Below are positions 1,701 through 42,563 of a stretch of DNA of 42,563 nucleotides, piece by piece. The stretch is from the NCBI GenBank assembly GCA_013821455.1, contig JACDGS010000037.1, positions 1 to 42,563 on the forward strand, written 5' to 3'. Made by a program: the position numbers and the translations under genes. This DNA comes from Chthoniobacterales bacterium. GTDB lineage: Bacteria > Verrucomicrobiota > Verrucomicrobiia > Chthoniobacterales > UBA10450. The notes under the pieces are model-generated. The model was not told the DNA's origin and did no database searches. It worked only from the letters and a program-made list of their open reading frames with translations. The first letter of the stretch is position 1. Each line of letters starts with the position of its first letter.

Positions 1701-4150
1701 AGACGCCGCCTCTTTTCTACAGCGCTGCGGTCGCCTTTTTTGTTTTCGCGAGTTCGTTAGGCGCGACGCCGCTGGAGGACGCGCTCCGTCCGCTCAGTGA
1801 CGGCGTCCCGGAAGTTGCCGTCGTTAGGCTGCAACAACTGCTCACGCAAAAACTCGCGCCTTCCGAGCAACAGCTCGCGCAAAGCAAATTGCTTGAAGCG
1901 CTGGCCCGCGCCGGCCGTCCGGAGGAAGCGTTGAAGATCGCGGTCGATCCCAGCCTAACGAAAGACTGGCCCGCACAATTTTGGAAAGCTCAGGCTCTCG
2001 CCGCGCTCGGCCGTTGGTCAGAGGCGGAGCCAGCTTACGCACAGGTCGCGGCGGCGGCAGACGCACCGCTCCGCGCCGACGCCGCGTTCGGCGAAGCGCA
2101 AAGCCTGCGCGCACTCGGGCGGCGCGACGACGCCCTGCGCGTCCTCCGCCCGCTGCAGCAGGACGCGCTCTGGCAAGTTCGAGCATCGTTAGGCATCGCT
2201 GCGCTGATGATCGAGCAGGGCGATCTCGTGGGAGCCGATCGGCTCTTGCGCGCTTTCAAAATGGATCGGCCCGCCGACCGTCAGGAACGCCGTTTTCTTT
2301 TCGGAAAAATCCAGCTCGAACAGGGGCGCTACGATCGCGCCGCGGAAATCCTCGCGGTGATTTTGCAACAGCCCGCGGACGTTCCGCACCCGCTCCTCAT
2401 CGCCACGCTTTTTGCCATCGCCGACACGCATCTGCGGGGAAAAACACCGGAGCGGGGCGACGATGTCCTGGAGGATTTCATCGAGCATCACTCGGCGGAC
2501 GCCGCGCTGCCGGAGGTTTTCGCGAAGCTGGATGAGCTCTATCAAGCGGAACAAAAACCTTCGCCTAACGAACTCGCGCGCTGGACGCGCGAGCGCACGG
2601 AACCGCGCCGCGCGCTCGCCCAATGGTATCTCGCGCGCAGCCAACTGCGCGCGGGCGAGCGCGAGGCCGCGCTCAGAAACCTGACCAATCTGCGCACAAG
2701 CGCGGCGCAGTTGCCGTCGTTAGGCGAAGCACAGTTCGAATTGGCGCGTCTCCTTTTTGCGGATCGCAAATGGGACGAGGCGATTGCCGCGGGCGAAGCG
2801 GCGAAACGGCTTGATCCCATGTCGGAGGTCGGCACGCGCGCAGCGTGGCTGATTGCCGAAGCGAATTATCGCGCTGGCCGGCTCGAAGCCGCCGCGCCGA
2901 TTTTCGAACAAGTCGCAAAAGACGCGCCCGCCTTTGCGAGCGACGCGCTTTTCAATGCTGCGCTTTGCTGGCTGCGAATCGAGCAGGCGGATAAATTCTC
3001 GAGCGATTACCGGCGCATCAGCGACGATCCGACGAAGCAGTCCAGTCAGAGCGATCTGCTTCTCGAGGAAGGGATGGTGCAGGCGGCGCAAGGCAAAGCC
3101 GAAGCGGCGGAGGCCCTGCGAAAATTCATCCACGACTTCCCTAACAATGCGCGCTTGGCGGAAGCGTGGGTGGCGCTGGCCGAGCTGGCTTTTCACGAGC
3201 AAAAACCCGATCTCGCGGGAGCGCGCGCCGCTCTCGCGCAAGCGCGCCAAAGCAATCCGACCGCGAACGCGCTCGAGCGTGCCGATTATCTCGACATCTG
3301 GCTGAACGACGCCGCGGAAACGAAAGATGAGTCGCAAGTCATCGCGGCCGCGAGCGCCTTTTTGCAGCATCATCCCGGCTCGCCATTCACCGCGGAAGTG
3401 CGGATGAAACTGGCCGAGGCGTATTTTCGCCGGCAGGATTTTGCCAACGCGCAGACGCAGTTCGAACTTCTCGCCCAGCAAGACCCCGATGCCAGCCTAA
3501 CGGAAAAGGCGCTCTTTTTTGCGGCTCGTTCCGCGATGTCGAGCATGGGCGCGGCCTCGCTCGATCACGCGCTCGCGCTGCTCGATCAGGTGGTGAAATT
3601 AAACGGCGATTTGAAATGGGCGGCGCGTAATGAGGAGGCGGCAATCGAGCGGCGGCTCGGCAAGAACGAGGACGCGATCGCGATTTATGATGAGGTGCTG
3701 AAGAACAGCGCGAAGCCGCCCGAGCAGCGCGAAGCACTCTGCGGGAAGGCGGATGTGCTTTACGAAATGGGCGCGACCGATCCGCAAAATTATCGGCGCG
3801 CGATCGAGCTCTATCAGCAGTTGGCGGAGGAGCCGGGCGTGCCGGCGCATTGGCGGAATCAGGCGGGATTCAAGAAGGGCAAAGCGCTGGAGAAATCGAA
3901 CGACAAGCCGGCTGCCCTAACGACGTACTATTCCGTGCTCGAGCAGGGCGCGCAGCCGGAGCGGCAGCATGAATTTTTCTGGTTCTACAAGGCGGGGTTT
4001 AGCGCAGCGCATTTGTTGGAAGAGGCGAGCGATTGGAAATCGGCGGTAGCGGTTTACCGGAAGCTCGCAGCCGTAAATGGCGCGCGCAGCGACGAGGCAA
4101 AGACGCGGCTGACGCAGTTGCGAATGGAGCATTTTCTTTGGGACGAATAG
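1697..4150 (+). CDS. Exported TPR-repeat protein
   Basis: 817-residue protein starting [20 protein letters not shown], a clear Sec signal peptide ending near LGA, so it is probably periplasmic or outer-membrane associated. The rest is nearly continuous Ala/Leu/Glu-rich helical pairs of tetratricopeptide/Sel1 type, e.g. [38 protein letters not shown] and [13 protein letters not shown]; these act as protein-protein scaffolds. The start at 1697 was chosen because it gives a signal peptide and overlaps the uvrA stop as ATGA; an upstream in-frame start at 1568 would sit inside uvrA. It resembles YbgF/CpoB- or BamD-like TPR proteins only in general architecture; the specific partner is unknown. It is followed by a REP-like inverted repeat. 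Confidence 0.85.
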
Positions 4151-4193
4151 GGCGCCGAGTATTTGGGTCGGCGCGAGCGCCGGAAAACGCGTT

Positions 4194-4350
4194 GTCATCC
4201 CGAGCGGAGCGAAGCGGAGCCGAGGGATCGCGCCGGGTTTCGGTGCAGCGTCTGTGCGGATGGCCCCAGAAAGTTGCGCGAGAGCTGCGCGGAAAACCAC
4301 CGGGATCCCTCGACTCCGTTCCGCTTCGCTTCACTGCGCTCGGGATGACA
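4194..4350. repeat. REP-like inverted repeat (family B), intergenic
   Basis: Two long arms face each other: TCATCCCGAGCGGAGCG at the left end and the imperfect complement ending GCGCTCGGGATGA at the right, enclosing about 70 bases. It lies between the convergent TPR gene and ilvC, where it can act as a bidirectional terminator or mRNA stabiliser. Relatives are at 29498-29611, 30651-30775 and, inside uvrA, 36204-36350. Confidence 0.85.
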
Positions 4351-4376
4351 AGCTGCACGCGCCACCTCGCGACTCG

Positions 4377-5414
4377 TTAGGGCTTTTCGTGCAGCCAGGA
4401 CATGAGACTGCGCACACGCTCCCCCACTTTGTCGATCGGTTGTGCTTTTCCTTGCGCGAGCAACTTGTTGTAACGCTTCCGGCCCCCAGCCGTTTCGCGC
4501 AGCCAGCCCTGGGCGAATTTTCCGCTCTGGATTTTCTCGAGGACTCCGCGCATCCGCGCTCGCACGCTCGCGTCGATGATCGCCGGGCCGACGGTGATGT
4601 CGCCCCATTTCGCCGTTTCCGAAATGCGCTGGCGCATTCCGCTGATGCCCGCACGATGCATCAGATCAACGATGAATTTCAGCTCGTGCAGGCATTCGAA
4701 ATACGCGATCTCCGGTTGGTACCCGGCCTTGACCAGTGTCTCAAATCCCGCCGTCACCAGCGCGCTCATCCCGCCGCACAAAACCGCCTGCTCGGCGAAT
4801 AGATCCGCTTCGGTCTCCTCGCGAAAAGTCGTCTCGATGACGCCGGCGCGCGTCCCGCCGATCGCCTTCGCGTAGGCGAGCGCGAGTTGGCGCGCGCGGC
4901 CGGTGGCGTCCTGCGCGATGGCGAAAACACAGGGCACGCCTTTGCCTTCGACAAACTGCGTGCGGACCATCGGCCCGAGTCCTTTGGGCGCGACCATGAC
5001 GACATCGACGTCGTTAGGCGGAACGATGGTGCGGTAATGAATGGCGAAGCCGTGCGCGAAGAGGAGCATCTGTCCGGCGCGCAGATTCGAAGCGATCTCC
5101 GCATCGTAAATCTCCGCCATTTTCGTGTCGGGCAGGGCGAGAAAAATAACCTCCGCGCGGCGGATCGCGAGCGCCGCCGTCGTTAGGCAAAAACCGGCGC
5201 GGCGCGCGGCGGAACGACTTCGGCTTTTGGCCCGCAAACCAACAACGACCGGCACGCCGCTGTCGCGCAGGTTGAGCGCATGCGCGCGCCCCTGCGCGCC
5301 AAAGCCGAGGACGGCGCAGGTTTTCTCGAGCAGCGGCCGGAGATCGACTTCTTTGTCGTTGAAGATTTTTGCGAGCAAGCGGGCCGATGGTAACGGCGCG
5401 CGCCACGCTGTCAA
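4377..5414 (-). CDS. ilvC: Ketol-acid reductoisomerase (class I)
   Basis: Catalyses the NADPH- and Mg-dependent isomeroreduction of acetolactate or acetohydroxybutyrate in valine/isoleucine synthesis; cytosolic. Seen: the Rossmann motif GFGAQGRAHALNL, a phosphate-binding loop rich in Arg/Ser after VGLR (suggesting NADPH), HGFAIHY, the metal-binding EETEADLFAEQAVLCGG, and ECLHELKFIVDLM, all in family order, so it looks active. TTG at 5414 overlaps the stop of the upstream TPR/GT-C gene (TTGA), but family alignment (LAKIFNDKE) would fit a TTG start at 5378, giving 333 residues; neither has an obvious ribosome site. The TAA stop lies inside a CCCTAACG motif. Other ilv genes are not in the window. 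Confidence 0.93.
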   Translation of the reverse strand: MTAWRAPLPSARLLAKIFNDKEVDLRPLLEKTCAVLGFGAQGRAHALNLRDSGVPVVVGLRAKSRSRSAARRAGFCLTTAALAIRRAEVIFLALPDTKMAEIYDAEIASNLRAGQMLLFAHGFAIHYRTIVPPNDVDVVMVAPKGLGPMVRTQFVEGKGVPCVFAIAQDATGRARQLALAYAKAIGGTRAGVIETTFREETEADLFAEQAVLCGGMSALVTAGFETLVKAGYQPEIAYFECLHELKFIVDLMHRAGISGMRQRISETAKWGDITVGPAIIDASVRARMRGVLEKIQSGKFAQGWLRETAGGRKRYNKLLAQGKAQPIDKVGERVRSLMSWLHEKP

Positions 5415-7591
5415 TTCAGCGCGACAGGGCCAAACTCGCGCGCCGCGGTTTCGAGACGCGCGACGTTGGCGAGCGCGGCTCGCGCTTCCGCGATGCGGCC
5501 CATTTTTTCCAGAATGCGCGAGAGGCTGACGTAGCCGTGCGGAAGGTTAGGCTGACGTGCCACCGCGCGTTGCTGCAGAGCGCAAGCCTCGGCCAGCCGA
5601 TTTTGTTTTAACGCCAGCTCCGCGAGCAGACCGAGCGCTTCGACTTCGTGCACATCGAGCCGGCTGGCATTCCGTAAATCACTTTCGGCCTCTCCCAAAT
5701 TGCCTTCCTGCACATGTAGTCGGCCGAGCACAAGCGACGCCTCGTAGTTCCACCAATTGTCGCGCTGATATTTTTCCACGACCGGAATCGCCGCGGCCGG
5801 TCCCGCAGTCTCCCGCAAAATCTCGCTTTGCAGCGCGACGATTTCCCAGACGCGCGGGTAATCGGCTTGCGCTGCCTCCAGCGTCGCGAGTGCACCCTTG
5901 AAATCCTTTCGATTCTGCTTGATGCCGGCAAGATTCACGGCGCCAAGCCAGGTGTGTGGATACTCCGCGCGCTCTCGCGGCGCGGCCGTGCTCGCTGCAG
6001 TGAAAGCAGCTTCGGCCTCTTTCTTTTTTCCCTCGCGGAAGAGCGCATTCGCGAGATTCGTCTGCGCGGGCGCGTAATCAGGGTAGTCGTGCAGGATTTC
6101 GCGGAAGAGCCGTTCGGCGCGCGCATACTCTCCGCGCGTGGCGTAGATCTGGCCAAGATTCAGACTCACGCGGACGCTCGTGCCGCCACTCGCGATCGTT
6201 TGTTCGTAGAAGTGTTCCGCCGTCGTCCAATCGCTGCTACGGTAAAAGCTGCGAACGCTGAGTGCGAGCACGGCACCAACTGCTCCGACCGCGACCACGC
6301 GCCGAAAATGCGCGGGAAGATCCAGCGCCAGACCGGCAAGAAAAATCAGAAGGCCGACACTTGGCAAATAAAGCCAATGTTCGGCCACGGTGGCGTTGAG
6401 GGGGAAAAGGTTCGAAACCGGAAGAAAGCCGACGGTGAACCAAAGCGCGCCGAAGGTTCGTGCCTTGCGGCAGGGACTTTTCCACAAACAAGCGCCTCCC
6501 AGGAGGCCGATGAGAACTAATCCACCAACAGAGAGGTACTCGAGACTCACCGATTTTTCCCATGCGCTTTGTGACTCATAGTTCTCCGCGTTTACGACCG
6601 TTCTTTCCATGTGCAGGGTGGCGGGAAAGATCATGAGCCTTCCGTAGTCGCCGAGCGCGCGGAACATCAGGACCACACGCACCGGCGCGCTCCATCCAGG
6701 CTGGAGACTCGGGCCCGATCTTCGCTCCGGGAGCAGGCGCAAGCCGCAGTAAGTCGCGCAAATAACAACGCAACCGATACAGATCGCTACCTTCCCCCGA
6801 CGATTCCAAGCCTTCGAGAAAGCTATGGTATGGAGCAGAAAAATAACCAGCCACAGGCCGCCTGTTTCGCGGGAGCAAAAAGATAAAAGCGCCAGCGCCG
6901 CGGCTAAGCCATAGAGAGCAATTCTTACGCTAACTCTCCTGGCTTGACTGGCTTTGAACATGAGCAGCCAGCCCGCACACGCGAAGCAGAAGGCCAGACT
7001 GTCTGCGCGTCCCGAAATATAATCGACCGCCGCGCTCTGCACGGGGTGCACCATCCAGAGGAGAGCAACCACAAAAGCCGCGTGCGAATTTAGCGAAGCT
7101 GACCCCTGCGCGCTCGAGAGCGGACGAAGCAATCGGAGGAGAAGGAAATAGAGCAAAGTGCCGCTAAGTGCATGCAGACCTACATTCGTTAGGTGAAAGC
7201 CATAGGGATCATCGTTCCAAAAAAGGTAATCAACGATGAAGGATAAGTTCTGCACGGGGCGATAGTGCGGCGAGAGGGAGTCGAGGAAGAGGTGATGCCG
7301 GAAAACCTCGAAAACAAAAAGCGGACTCCTAATCAAAGGATTATCGTGCGCGAGATAAGTATCATCCCAGAGGAAGTTGCCCGAGAGTGAAGGTCCGTGG
7401 ATAACAAAAGCGACGGCGAAGAAGAGAAGGGGACACAACCAGGCCAGTCGCAAATCGCTGAGAGAACGCGAAAGAAAGCGCGGCCGTGCCGAAGCGGTCG
7501 CCGGGAGAAGTTTGCGCATGGGTGAGAACGCGCCGGTCGCAAGTGACTCATTTCCTGCCACCGCGCAGGCGATGACAGGTTTATGAGACAT
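5411..7591 (-). CDS. TMTC-like membrane glycosyltransferase with C-terminal TPRs
   Basis: 726 residues. The N-terminal ~450 residues are multi-pass membrane helices of the GT-C fold (PMT/TMTC-like), with an early extracytoplasmic acidic motif GNFLWDDTYLAHDNPLI where GT-C enzymes place the catalytic Asp, then HYRPVQNLSF and a typical HLTNVGLHAL helix. From about residue 475 it is TPRs (LGQIYATRGEYARAERLF, FREGKKKEAEAAF). Family knowledge suggests transfer of a lipid-phosphate-linked sugar to proteins or glycans on the periplasmic side, with the TPRs recognising the acceptor; substrate unknown. It lies just downstream of the pseudopilin gene on the same strand (6-base gap) and overlaps the possible ilvC start. 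An internal start (MRKLLPATAS) is possible. Confidence 0.8.
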   Translation of the reverse strand: MSHKPVIACAVAGNESLATGAFSPMRKLLPATASARPRFLSRSLSDLRLAWLCPLLFFAVAFVIHGPSLSGNFLWDDTYLAHDNPLIRSPLFVFEVFRHHLFLDSLSPHYRPVQNLSFIVDYLFWNDDPYGFHLTNVGLHALSGTLLYFLLLRLLRPLSSAQGSASLNSHAAFVVALLWMVHPVQSAAVDYISGRADSLAFCFACAGWLLMFKASQARRVSVRIALYGLAAALALLSFCSRETGGLWLVIFLLHTIAFSKAWNRRGKVAICIGCVVICATYCGLRLLPERRSGPSLQPGWSAPVRVVLMFRALGDYGRLMIFPATLHMERTVVNAENYESQSAWEKSVSLEYLSVGGLVLIGLLGGACLWKSPCRKARTFGALWFTVGFLPVSNLFPLNATVAEHWLYLPSVGLLIFLAGLALDLPAHFRRVVAVGAVGAVLALSVRSFYRSSDWTTAEHFYEQTIASGGTSVRVSLNLGQIYATRGEYARAERLFREILHDYPDYAPAQTNLANALFREGKKKEAEAAFTAASTAAPRERAEYPHTWLGAVNLAGIKQNRKDFKGALATLEAAQADYPRVWEIVALQSEILRETAGPAAAIPVVEKYQRDNWWNYEASLVLGRLHVQEGNLGEAESDLRNASRLDVHEVEALGLLAELALKQNRLAEACALQQRAVARQPNLPHGYVSLSRILEKMGRIAEARAALANVARLETAAREFGPVALN

Positions 7592-36984: not shown

Positions 36985-38553
36985 TCATTCCCTGAGAACG
37001 ACTTTTTCCAGTTCGCGCTGCAAGGCTGTCTCCGCTTCGGCGTCGTTTTCGTGACCCCAGACGGCCAGCTCGAACATGCGCGCGCCCAGCTCGCGTTTGC
37101 CCTGCCAAGCGGAGTGCAGCCGGCCGCGCGCCGTCCAGTCTTCCGTCGCCGCGGCGGCGTCGGTGTAGGAAGAACGGCCGTCCCAGTAGCAGTAGAAAAT
37201 GTGCAGCGGCTGGCCGTTGTTATCGAAGCGATACGCGCGGATCGGCAGGTCGATGCCATTCGCCCTAACGACGTGAACGCCGCTCTCGTGCTGCATCGTG
37301 AGGCCGCTCGCCGGCAGACAAATGTCGGGCCGGTGATTTTTCACGAACAACGCCGCCGTCCGGCCGGGCAGCCAATGGAAGGAATACATCATCCAACGAC
37401 GCTCGTCGGCCGAACGCCAGAGCGCGGCGCCGCCTTCGTTGTAGCGGAGCAGCTCGGCCGCGGCGGCCGGAATGGGCTGGGTTTCGTAACCCTGCTCGCT
37501 CGTCGGCCAGGCGATGCTCCATGCAGCGGAGAGCTCGTGATGGCGCGGAGCGTACCAGGCGGCGACGGCAATTTCCGTCAGCCCGAGCCAGACGAGAAGC
37601 GCGAGCGACCAGCCGGGATTTGGAAGCAGCCATCCTTCAGATTTTTTTTGATCGTTAGGCAAGAGCGGCGCTTGCAACCAGAGGCTCACGCCCCAGAGCG
37701 CGAAAACACAGATGAACAAAATGGTGAAACCCGCCGGGTCGTGCCAGCGATGGATCGCCTCGAGGCCGTTGCTGGCGGCGATTTCGCAGAGGAGAAACGT
37801 GCGTCCGATGTTGCAGACGAACGCGAGCCCCGCCGCGATGACGATGAGGAGAAAACGCCGCCGCAAATTCATGCGATAAAACGCGCCGAGAAAAAGCGCG
37901 ATCATGAATGTCGCCTGGAGCGAGCGCACGCCGGTGCAAGCGTCGTCGATCCCAACCTGGCCGGTGGGCAGCTCAATGACGTTGCCGTGTTGCACGGCGA
38001 GCGTGCCGATGACGTTGAGAATTCCGATCGTGATCGCCGCGTCTGCGCGCATGAGATGTTGCACGACGAATTGCTCGATCTGCACCGGCCACGGCACGGC
38101 GACGAGGAAAAACAAAACCGGAAACGCGAAATGCTGCAGAGTGGGAAAGCCGCCCGCAAGCTGGAGCGCGCCTAACGAGATCGTCACCACGGCCAGCGCC
38201 ATGATCCAATCGAGCATTCGCCAATCGGGATTCGCGACAGCGATGAGACGGGCCGGAAAAAGCGCGAGTGCGGCGAGGAGGAACAGCGCGATCGTTAGGC
38301 CAGAGAATTTTGGCGCCGCCACATCGGGGCGGCGCGACCAGCGTTGCCAGAAAAGAACCAGCGCCAAAAACGGCACGGTCCAGCCGTAGCCATACTGCGG
38401 ATTGAGGGACCATTCGCTGCTGAGCTGGGAAATGATTTCCCACCAGAGAAAACCGAAGGCGACGACGGCGAGGAGCAGCGGCCAGGGAAAATCCCGCGTC
38501 GTCGCGGCGGCACGCGGCGCGAGCGCCCGAGCTTCCGCGGTGGAATGGGACAT
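36985..38553 (-). CDS. Exosortase fused to C-terminal EpsI domain
   Basis: 522 residues. The N-terminal ~300 form a multi-pass exosortase (transpeptidase-like sorting of PEP-CTERM proteins). Catalytic motifs: IDDACTGVRSLQ with Cys206, CNIGRTFLL with Arg251, and HRWHDPAG with His268/His271, all within membrane helices as in XrtA-type enzymes. From ~residue 310 a helix leads to a periplasmic EpsI-type domain (WMMYSFHWLPGRTAALFVKNH, HRPDICLPASGL, HIFYCYWDG), usually linked with exopolysaccharide export. The fused form is known from Verrucomicrobiota and Planctomycetota. The gene is divergent from a membrane-anchored TPR gene (38619), recalling TPR proteins beside exosortases. No PEP-CTERM substrate is visible in the window. 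ATG at 38553. Confidence 0.92.
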   Translation of the reverse strand: MSHSTAEARALAPRAAATTRDFPWPLLLAVVAFGFLWWEIISQLSSEWSLNPQYGYGWTVPFLALVLFWQRWSRRPDVAAPKFSGLTIALFLLAALALFPARLIAVANPDWRMLDWIMALAVVTISLGALQLAGGFPTLQHFAFPVLFFLVAVPWPVQIEQFVVQHLMRADAAITIGILNVIGTLAVQHGNVIELPTGQVGIDDACTGVRSLQATFMIALFLGAFYRMNLRRRFLLIVIAAGLAFVCNIGRTFLLCEIAASNGLEAIHRWHDPAGFTILFICVFALWGVSLWLQAPLLPNDQKKSEGWLLPNPGWSLALLVWLGLTEIAVAAWYAPRHHELSAAWSIAWPTSEQGYETQPIPAAAAELLRYNEGGAALWRSADERRWMMYSFHWLPGRTAALFVKNHRPDICLPASGLTMQHESGVHVVRANGIDLPIRAYRFDNNGQPLHIFYCYWDGRSSYTDAAAATEDWTARGRLHSAWQGKRELGARMFELAVWGHENDAEAETALQRELEKVVLRE

Positions 38554-41119: not shown

Positions 41120-42025
41120 GTGCGTTCCGGCTTTTTTGCGGTCCTGGCGTGTCTTGGCGCGGGCCTTTTTGTTGCGCCGGCTTTTGGTGCTGCGATGGAA
41201 ATAGGCGGAGGAAAAATCGACGTCGTCATCGAAGGCGACAATGCGGATTTTCCCGAAGCGCTGGCGATGAATTGGATCACGACCGCGGCGCGCGCGGTGA
41301 CCAGCTATTATGGGACCTTCCCGGTTTCGCACGTGGTCATTCACCTGCATCCGGTCGCAGGCGATGAGATTGAAGGTGGCAGAACCTTTGGCACGAACGA
41401 CGGCGGCCGGATCAGTGTGGAAGTCGGTCGGGCCACAACCGCGGCGCATTTCCAGCGCGACTGGTTGATGACGCACGAGATGGTGCACCTCTCCATCCCC
41501 GGCGTGGCGGACGAACATCATTGGATCGAGGAAGGCATCGCGACTTATGTCGAACCGATCGCGCGCGCGGAGATCGGCAACCTTCGTCCCGAACAAGTCT
41601 GGAACGATGTCGCGCGCGACATGCCGCAAGGCCTTCCCCAAGCAGGCGACCGCGGCTTGGATTTCACGGCGACGTGGGGTCGCACTTATTGGGGCGGCGC
41701 GCTTTTTTGTTTGCTCGCCGATGTGGAAATTCGGCAGCGCACCGGCAACCGGAAAGGCTTGCAGGACGCGCTCCGCGGCATTCTCGCAGCCGGCGGCAAT
41801 ATCTCGGAAGATTGGGATTTCGAGCGCGTCATCCGCACGGGCGATCGGGCGACAGGCGTACCGGTGTTGCACGAGCTCTACGAAAAAATGCGCGCCGCTC
41901 CCAGCCCGGTGGCCTTGGATGATTTGTGGAAACGTCTCGGCCTCGAGCGCAGCGGCCGAAGCGTCGTCTTGCACGACGATGCGCCGCTGGCGGCAATTCG
42001 CCGCGTCATCGTGCCGGGTGAATAA
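41120..42025 (+). CDS. Secreted HExxH zinc metallopeptidase (gluzincin-like)
   Basis: 301 residues. Signal peptide MRSGFFAVLACLGAGLFVAP (ending AFG) is read from a GTG at 41120; no better in-frame start is visible. The zinc site MTHEMVHLSIPG gives HExxH with His119, Glu120, His123. WIEEGIATYVEPIAR supplies a likely third ligand Glu (137 or 138) 14-15 residues on, the gluzincin pattern, as in M1/M61 and many periplasmic peptidases with HE..H...EG.A.Y. The remainder (NRKGLQDALRGILAAGG, VLHELYEKM) fits the helical C-terminal domain of such enzymes. Target unknown. Confidence 0.82.
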   Translation: MRSGFFAVLACLGAGLFVAPAFGAAMEIGGGKIDVVIEGDNADFPEALAMNWITTAARAVTSYYGTFPVSHVVIHLHPVAGDEIEGGRTFGTNDGGRISVEVGRATTAAHFQRDWLMTHEMVHLSIPGVADEHHWIEEGIATYVEPIARAEIGNLRPEQVWNDVARDMPQGLPQAGDRGLDFTATWGRTYWGGALFCLLADVEIRQRTGNRKGLQDALRGILAAGGNISEDWDFERVIRTGDRATGVPVLHELYEKMRAAPSPVALDDLWKRLGLERSGRSVVLHDDAPLAAIRRVIVPGE

Positions 42026-42191
42026 TCGTGGTTGTCTTGCGTCTTTTGCCTGACTACAAACGAATTATAAAAGACGATGAAACTTCAGGCTCCAGTTCGC
42101 TTCTCCGGGAATAACGACCGCATGAGCGCGTCTTATCGGAGTGTTTCACCATATGGCCGCAAGAGCGGCCTGCGTTTCCCCTCAGCCAGCT

Positions 42192-42240
42192 TTATCCGAA
42201 ACGGCCTCGAATGAATCGAGGGGTTTCCGCCTTCGGATAA
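42192..42240 (+). promoter_or_regulatory. Structured leader upstream of bufferin-like gene
   Basis: A nested stem: TTATCCGAA (42192-42200) with TTCGGATAA (42232-42240), CGG (42202-42204) with CCG (42227-42229), and CCTCGA (42205-42210) with TCGAGG (42216-42221) around loop ATGAA. It ends 23 bases before the ATG of the gene at 42264. There is no T run, so it looks like a leader RNA structure or operator; it could respond to metal, which is speculation from the product. Confidence 0.6.
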
Positions 42241-42263
42241 TAAAACCAAAACAGAAAGCAAAC

Positions 42264-42545
42264 ATGAAATCGAAAACAATCCTCGCCGGCGCAGCTATCG
42301 CCGGATTGATGAGTGGCTCGTTCGCCGTCCAGGCGCACGCGGCTAACGTGTCCTCCAAAGCGGGCGTCTCGCTCAGCCAAATGGGTCACAAGGATAAGGA
42401 CAAGGACGTTCACTCCTGCAAAGGAAAGAACTCCTGCAAGGGCAAAGGCGGTTGCAAAACCGGCGAAAACGGCTGCAAAGGCAAGAATTCCTGCAAAGGA
42501 AAAGGCGGCTGTGCGACCGACGGCAGCAAGCCCGATCAGGGCTAG
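42264..42545 (+). CDS. Small Cys-Gly-Lys repeat protein, bufferin (BufA2)-like
   Basis: 93 residues. Signal peptide MKSKTILAGAAIAGLMSGSF with cleavage near AHA-A; mature part ends in a His/Lys/Asp linker (MGHKDKDKDVHS) and then a duplicated block CKGKNSCKGKGGC, KTGENG, CKGKNSCKGKGGC: six Cys in near-regular spacing. The two blocks are also similar as DNA (from about 42417 and 42474). This looks like periplasmic bufferin-type metallophore precursors whose Cys residues are modified by a DUF692 (MNIO) enzyme with a DUF2063-type partner and bind copper; the assignment rests on the CKGxNSCKGKG pattern. The modifying enzymes would be expected just beyond the right edge. The ATG at 42264 gives the signal peptide; upstream codons read through the leader. 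Confidence 0.78.
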   Translation: MKSKTILAGAAIAGLMSGSFAVQAHAANVSSKAGVSLSQMGHKDKDKDVHSCKGKNSCKGKGGCKTGENGCKGKNSCKGKGGCATDGSKPDQG

Positions 42546-42563
42546 TTCTCGGCTACGAGCGTT

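Follow-up and report, generated by a model that had tools for sequence, protein, structure and literature searches.

A type 2 bufferin gene cluster in a Chthoniobacterales-like bacterium and its probable place in an ECF sigma factor regulon

RESULTS

A split type 2 bufferin cluster

Near the right end of the window, the 42,563-nucleotide stretch of DNA analyzed here in full, we identified bufA2, a gene encoding the precursor of a type 2 bufferin (Buf2). We consider it probable that this gene belongs to the Buf2 cluster of a Chthoniobacterales-like verrucomicrobial bacterium and that the cluster forms part of a periplasmic copper/redox-stress regulon under the control of an ECF sigma factor. 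The window is the entire contig C59 of a soil bacterium (genome G000; 4.30 Mb in 117 contigs), and the cluster is divided between two contigs as follows.

42264 to 42545, plus strand: bufA2, ATG start, TAG stop, 93 amino acids, type 2 bufferin precursor (BufA2)
42546 to 42563, no strand: assembly break, end of C59; bufB-bufC-doxX resume at the start of contig C46
Contig C46 (locus L002), 67 to 921: bufB, DUF692/MNIO
Contig C46 (locus L002), ~884/1024 to 1894: bufC, DUF2063
Contig C46 (locus L002), ~1891 to 2367: doxX, DoxX

Gene content and operon order are read directly from the DNA. Translated from the ATG at 42264 to the stop at 42545, BufA2 reads MKSKTILAGAAIAGLMSGSFAVQAHAANVSSKAGVSLSQMGHKDKDKDVHSCKGKNSCKGKGGCKTGENGCKGKNSCKGKGGCATDGSKPDQG. 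By inspection (a hydrophobic stretch followed by an A-x-A site), residues ~1 to 26 form a Sec signal peptide with cleavage between AHA and AN, and this signal peptide is kept across the alignment of BufA2 relatives. The six cysteines lie in two CKGKNSCKGKGGC blocks (C-K-G-K-N-S-C-K-G-K-G-G-C), and all six are invariant in an alignment of nine relatives. The sole close NCBIfam match of the protein was the BufA2 model NF050166 (E = 3e-11; 43.3 bits against a curated cut-off of 60). The nine relatives also matched this model only, the best at E = 6.7e-13, slightly better than the window protein. The named relatives are from Spartobacteria, Chthoniobacterales, Opitutaceae, and Acidobacteriaceae, mostly from metagenome-assembled genomes. 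The open reading frame bears out an earlier note on this DNA, which had described an exported 93-residue protein with six cysteines that resembles BufA2-type precursors. The same note had regarded the duplicated block and a KDKDKD linker as unusual; we rejected both as novelties. Block duplication is the canonical, defining Buf2 motif: six conserved cysteines occur in ~90% of Buf2 (PMC12452194), and the two-block pattern is present in most of 109 homologues from Verrucomicrobiota and Acidobacteriota. The linker is variable and is missing from BufA2 of the closest relative, a congener (locus L015). By its sequence, the window bufA2 is thus an ordinary gene for a predicted copper-buffering peptide (bufferin) of type 2.

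Two variants were seen among the homologues. Genome G040 carries a second bufA2 (L021, 3786 to 4091), with extra cysteine at the C-terminal end of its product and no bufB found on its stretch, in addition to a complete cluster elsewhere in the genome. In two Opitutia/Verrucomicrobiota homologues (L067 and L049), long CKGKDGC-like repeat arrays take the place of the two blocks.

Since the window runs to the right end of C59, the window edge at which the gene had been placed is an assembly break. The single DUF692 match in the genome lies at bases 103 to 888 of C46, and the BufB protein scored 343.9 bits against NF050167 (MNIO_BufB), above the cut-off of 310. At the start of C46 this gene is followed by DUF2063 and then DoxX genes. 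In the same-genus genome G004 (L015), bufA, bufB, and bufC are contiguous, with 81 nt separating bufA from bufB. When aligned to this locus, the window end (84%) and the C46 start (83%) lie ~45 nt apart, and the two contigs are therefore in all likelihood adjacent, with a gap of ~45 nt. We rejected a join by sequence overlap, as none was found between C59 and C46; the join is drawn from the congener alignment. Modification enzymes had been expected to the right of bufA2, with DUF692, DUF2063, and DoxX genes as those to look for. All three stand at the C46 start, the sole DUF692 gene of the genome opening that contig across the ~45-nt gap. Both a nearby DUF692 gene and matches to bufferin models (NF050167 and NF050166, as above) were found, the joint lack of which the earlier note had named as evidence against its reading.

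The sequence cannot show modification, and some Buf2 genes stand alone (PMC12452194), so that BufA2 might be an exported, cysteine-rich protein of metallothionein-like kind that stays unmodified and has nothing to do with the MNIO genes. We regard this as very improbable: bufA lies upstream of bufB in 77 of 80 bufB loci, and in the relatives examined bufB directly follows bufA2 with few exceptions, among them the orphan second copy at L021. In addition, the BufB signature at the substrate site is E-W-D-D, in line with the Asp ascribed to Cys-Lys (Buf2) MNIOs (PMC13097082); the substrate motif fits the Cys-Lys class. For the Buf2 cluster as proposed, we infer the cysteine chemistry and copper binding. 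BufA2 would be synthesized with its Sec signal peptide, and BufB (MNIO) and BufC (DUF2063/RRE) are predicted from family membership to oxidize some of its cysteines to thiooxazoles; the modified peptide would then be exported and bind periplasmic copper.

On C46, the region 3' of doxX (2374 to 7585) holds one large cyclase-like gene and one gene each for a thioredoxin-domain-like protein and a secreted MsrA, all named by eye, and a cupin gene carrying the ECF motif described below lies ~7.2 kb into the contig.

A conserved promoter-like motif upstream of bufA2

A motif with the shape of an ECF promoter precedes bufA2.

42107 to 42135, plus strand: predicted ECF-sigma promoter, GGGAATAA at 42107 to 42114, N16, TCTTA at 42131 to 42135

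Aligned bufA2 leaders have GGGAATAA in common, followed after 16 nt by TCYNA, and the 300 nt leading up to bufA2 show a ~67-fold enrichment of GGGAATAA. The full pattern searched (GGAATA, 16 to 18 nt, TCnnA) was present in 42 of 93 non-redundant bufA2 leaders, a 70-fold excess over background, with no matches in the reversed leaders used as a control. Genome-wide, it matched 11 times in G000 versus once in the reversed control, and 10 times in G004 versus twice in the control. In both genomes the motif lies 5' of bufA2, of an ECF sigma/anti-sigma operon, and of a secreted DUF1223 gene. MsrA carries it with an exact -10 form in G004 and a looser -10 form in G000, MsrB carries it in G004, and one cupin gene and one gene for a secreted monooxygenase-like protein carry it in G000. 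From the shape of the motif (a GGAA-type -35, a short -10, and an autoregulated sigma gene) we infer an ECF promoter. Our literature search brought up nothing published about this motif or about how Verrucomicrobiota bufferins are regulated. Among the Acidobacteriota clusters with a divergent sigma after doxX (see below), a different motif, TGTTACCCTTCT ... CGTATCTAAC, seems by eye to be common to several of the bufA2 leaders.

An ECF sigma/anti-sigma pair associated with bufferin clusters

The sigma operon that carries the motif lies on contig C82 of the same genome.

Contig C82 (G000:C82:69990): ECF sigma factor, 176 amino acids, PF04542 (Sigma70_r2) and PF08281 (r4_2) above cut-off
Contig C82, following the sigma gene: predicted anti-sigma factor, 247 amino acids, one membrane helix by inspection

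The anti-sigma match of the 247-amino-acid product was weak and fell below the cut-off (E = 6e-4). Across 41 anti-sigma sequences, C167 (93%), C181 (95%), and H191 (90%) are conserved in the predicted extracytoplasmic/periplasmic part, and as a candidate this Cys/Cys/His set is plausible as a metal or redox sensor.

ECF sigma factors can have similar promoters in common. The bufferin cluster might accordingly be as proposed, with GGGAATAA read by a different ECF sigma factor of the genome, which has 24 Sigma70_r2 genes, and with the sigma found in clusters elsewhere controlling something else; among 29 bufA2 genomes, the association between presence of the strict motif and presence of the sigma was not significant (14/20 versus 3/9, Fisher p = 0.11). 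We judge this unlikely, given three observations that point to the C82 sigma. It alone among the 24 Sigma70_r2 genes of the genome has the motif upstream, the other 23 being without it. The motif also lies 5' of the sigma gene in all 11 of its closest orthologues (17 of the 30 examined). Finally, sigma orthologues are found inside bufA2BC-doxX clusters at 14 Verrucomicrobiota loci, with the anti-sigma beside them in nearly every case. The gene order takes three forms; examples are bufA-B-C-doxX-sigma-anti-sigma and sigma-anti-sigma-doxX-bufA-B-C. Motif enrichment, conservation at the sigma operon, and the presence of the sigma within clusters elsewhere are seen in the DNA itself, and from these the C82 sigma is predicted to read the bufA2 promoter.

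In a sample of 213 genomes of the order, the sigma was present in 27 of 39 genomes with bufA2 versus 31 of 174 without it (p = 1e-9, uncorrected for phylogeny). Regulation by sigma and motif is not universal, because three genomes of one genus (g7) have bufA2 with neither the motif nor a detected sigma. Sigma genes have been reported in Buf1 clusters and none in Buf2 clusters (PMC12452194; Antoine et al. 2025). In several Edaphobacter-type Acidobacteriota, we observed more distant ECF sigma genes directly after doxX in Buf2 clusters (divergent sigmas at L050, L053, L064, L065, L078, L093, and L096).

Leader hairpins

Two stem-loops lie between the predicted promoter and bufA2.

42155 to 42170, plus strand: short perfect stem-loop GGCCGC-AAGA-GCGGCC, read directly; not seen in the L015 leader
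42192 to 42240, plus strand: leader hairpin, 49 nt, ending 23 nt before the bufA2 ATG

The larger hairpin is where the earlier note had described it, together with the suggestion that it might act in copper control; the latter finds no support here. Were the hairpin the main control of the gene, either as an RNA switch that responds to copper or metal or as an attenuator of bufA2 translation, a significant fold would be in keeping with it: the z score was -2.25, and 3 of 200 dinucleotide shuffles folded as well. The congener L015 keeps all 18 pairs, with two double (compensatory) and two single compatible changes, a conservation equaled by 126 of 500 shuffles; two sequences alone cannot reach significance. 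Compared with other upstream regions at these loci (mean z of -0.51, n = 47), Verrucomicrobiota bufA2 leaders are also more structured (mean z of -1.47, n = 64; p = 6e-5). Several observations nevertheless make such a switch quite improbable. We rejected a known riboswitch as a candidate, since an Rfam scan of 41900 to 42563 yielded only a chance-level match (E = 2.4, inside the coding region) and no known riboswitch family. Between genera, the leader hairpins do not align in sequence and have no conserved loop or bulge sequence. In the predicted fold the start region is largely open, and no U-run follows the hairpin. At the loci of two close relatives (L016 and L017), the promoter begins only 46 nt ahead of the ATG, too near for a hairpin of this kind to fit, and the hairpin is therefore dispensable there. 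Nothing ties the hairpin to copper, and it is more likely to be a generic 5'-UTR feature for stability or translation than a copper switch. As a control element of bufA2, the conserved promoter of ECF type has the better support.

A candidate accessory peptidase

Directly upstream of bufA2 lies a gene for a predicted secreted metallopeptidase.

41120 to 42025, plus strand: predicted secreted metallopeptidase, M61/M1-like gluzincin with HEMVH and, further on, EEG

On its own the protein had no Pfam match at cut-off; its family weakly matches M61. H119, E120, H123, and E138, which make up HExxH and the downstream Glu, are invariant in 18 homologues. The AlphaFold model (pLDDT 91.7) had as its best PDB match the M61 peptidase 7xyo (E = 2e-7). 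From model and alignment, the product is a predicted M61/M1-like gluzincin peptidase with catalytic-fold residues. Of 80 loci, 10 have a homologue at most ~3 kb from bufB, which in six of these occupies the position after doxX, and 16 of 18 genomes of the order with the peptidase also have bufA2 (p = 1e-11, uncorrected for phylogeny); the gene is thus a candidate accessory gene of the bufferin cluster. At 18 of 19 loci, no ECF motif stands 5' of the peptidase gene, which makes it unlikely that a promoter of its own brings the peptidase into the regulon.

Other features of the window and genome

The window also encodes a protein that resembles an exosortase in its CTGVRSLQ and NIGRTF motifs.

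36985 to 38553, minus strand: exosortase-like membrane protein, 522 amino acids

The 8-base core CGTTAGGC occurs 69 times in the whole window. Across the 4.30-Mb genome we counted 4605 copies of the 9-mer TCGTTAGGC (2299 on one strand and 2306 on the other, ~1 per kb), versus 62 copies of its reversed control. The core is found at 0.6 to 0.8 per kb in the loci of close relatives and at 0.25 in another genus of the family, and it is absent from the checked loci of other families. The repeated 9-mer is reminiscent of a genome-wide signature such as a DNA-uptake sequence.

DISCUSSION

In the mechanism that we propose for the Buf2 regulon, transcription of bufA2 would most likely start at the GGGAATAA-N16-TCYNA promoter through one ECF sigma factor, which also regulates its own gene. 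A single-pass anti-sigma, with near-invariant Cys, Cys, and His in its predicted periplasmic domain, would hold the sigma back. A DUF1223 protein and methionine-sulfoxide reductases that are secreted would also belong to the regulon, which would thus be a response to copper or oxidative damage in the cell envelope.

The cluster resembles the described Buf2 (Buf_6/12Cys) clusters (PMC12452194) in its Sec signal, six-Cys spacing, bufA-bufB-bufC-doxX order, and BufB equivalog. It differs from them in a lower BufA2 model score and in the M61-like peptidase as an accessory gene, and Verrucomicrobiota clusters can, in addition, hold an ECF sigma and a single-pass anti-sigma. That peptidase has the gluzincin fold, HExxH, and downstream Glu of the M61 glycyl aminopeptidases (7xyo, 8j9c) but is about half their length, at 14 to 17% identity, and without a Pfam match at cut-off.

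A regulatory parallel is found in Caulobacter, where the sigma-F/NrsF regulon includes Buf1 operons (PMC3511200). There, too, the promoters of the sigma gene and of a bufferin operon match and are both under the control of the sigma, the negative regulator NrsF has conserved cysteines, and the regulon contains a periplasmic methionine-sulfoxide-type reductase (YedY). In contrast, the Caulobacter bufferins are Buf1 (DUF2282), whereas here they are Buf2; NrsF is a six-TM DUF1109 protein, whereas the anti-sigma here is single-TM; and the -35/-10 motif here is GGGAATAA/TCYNA. Similarly, Haemophilus RpoE2, which controls an oxazolin-type cluster and MsrAB, and Neisseria SigE each place MsrAB and a four-gene DUF692-type/DUF2063/DoxX cluster under one ECF sigma (PMC7907618), although Haemophilus has an oxazolin-type precursor, another sigma and anti-sigma, and belongs to another phylum. 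Because ECF control of MNIO clusters is already known from Caulobacter and Haemophilus, what is added here is the sigma/anti-sigma pair, its motif, and the peptidase. We found no literature report on the control of type 2 bufferin clusters.

We advance tentatively, leaning slightly against it, the further proposal that these parts make up an unreported regulatory system of Verrucomicrobiota. In it, an ECF sigma and its transmembrane anti-sigma would be dedicated to type 2 bufferins and methionine-sulfoxide repair. The anti-sigma would detect copper or oxidants in the periplasm by means of a Cys-Cys-His site, and the M61-like peptidase may, as an optional partner, process the bufferin or turn it over.

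Bufferins, which are modified peptides that bind copper, are widespread, and the motif, the sigma/anti-sigma pair, and the candidate Cys/His sensor residues provide a concrete, testable control circuit in Verrucomicrobiota. Taken together with Caulobacter sigma-F and Haemophilus RpoE2, they suggest that the joint control of thiooxazole metallophores and methionine-sulfoxide repair by an ECF sigma factor arose or persisted several times.
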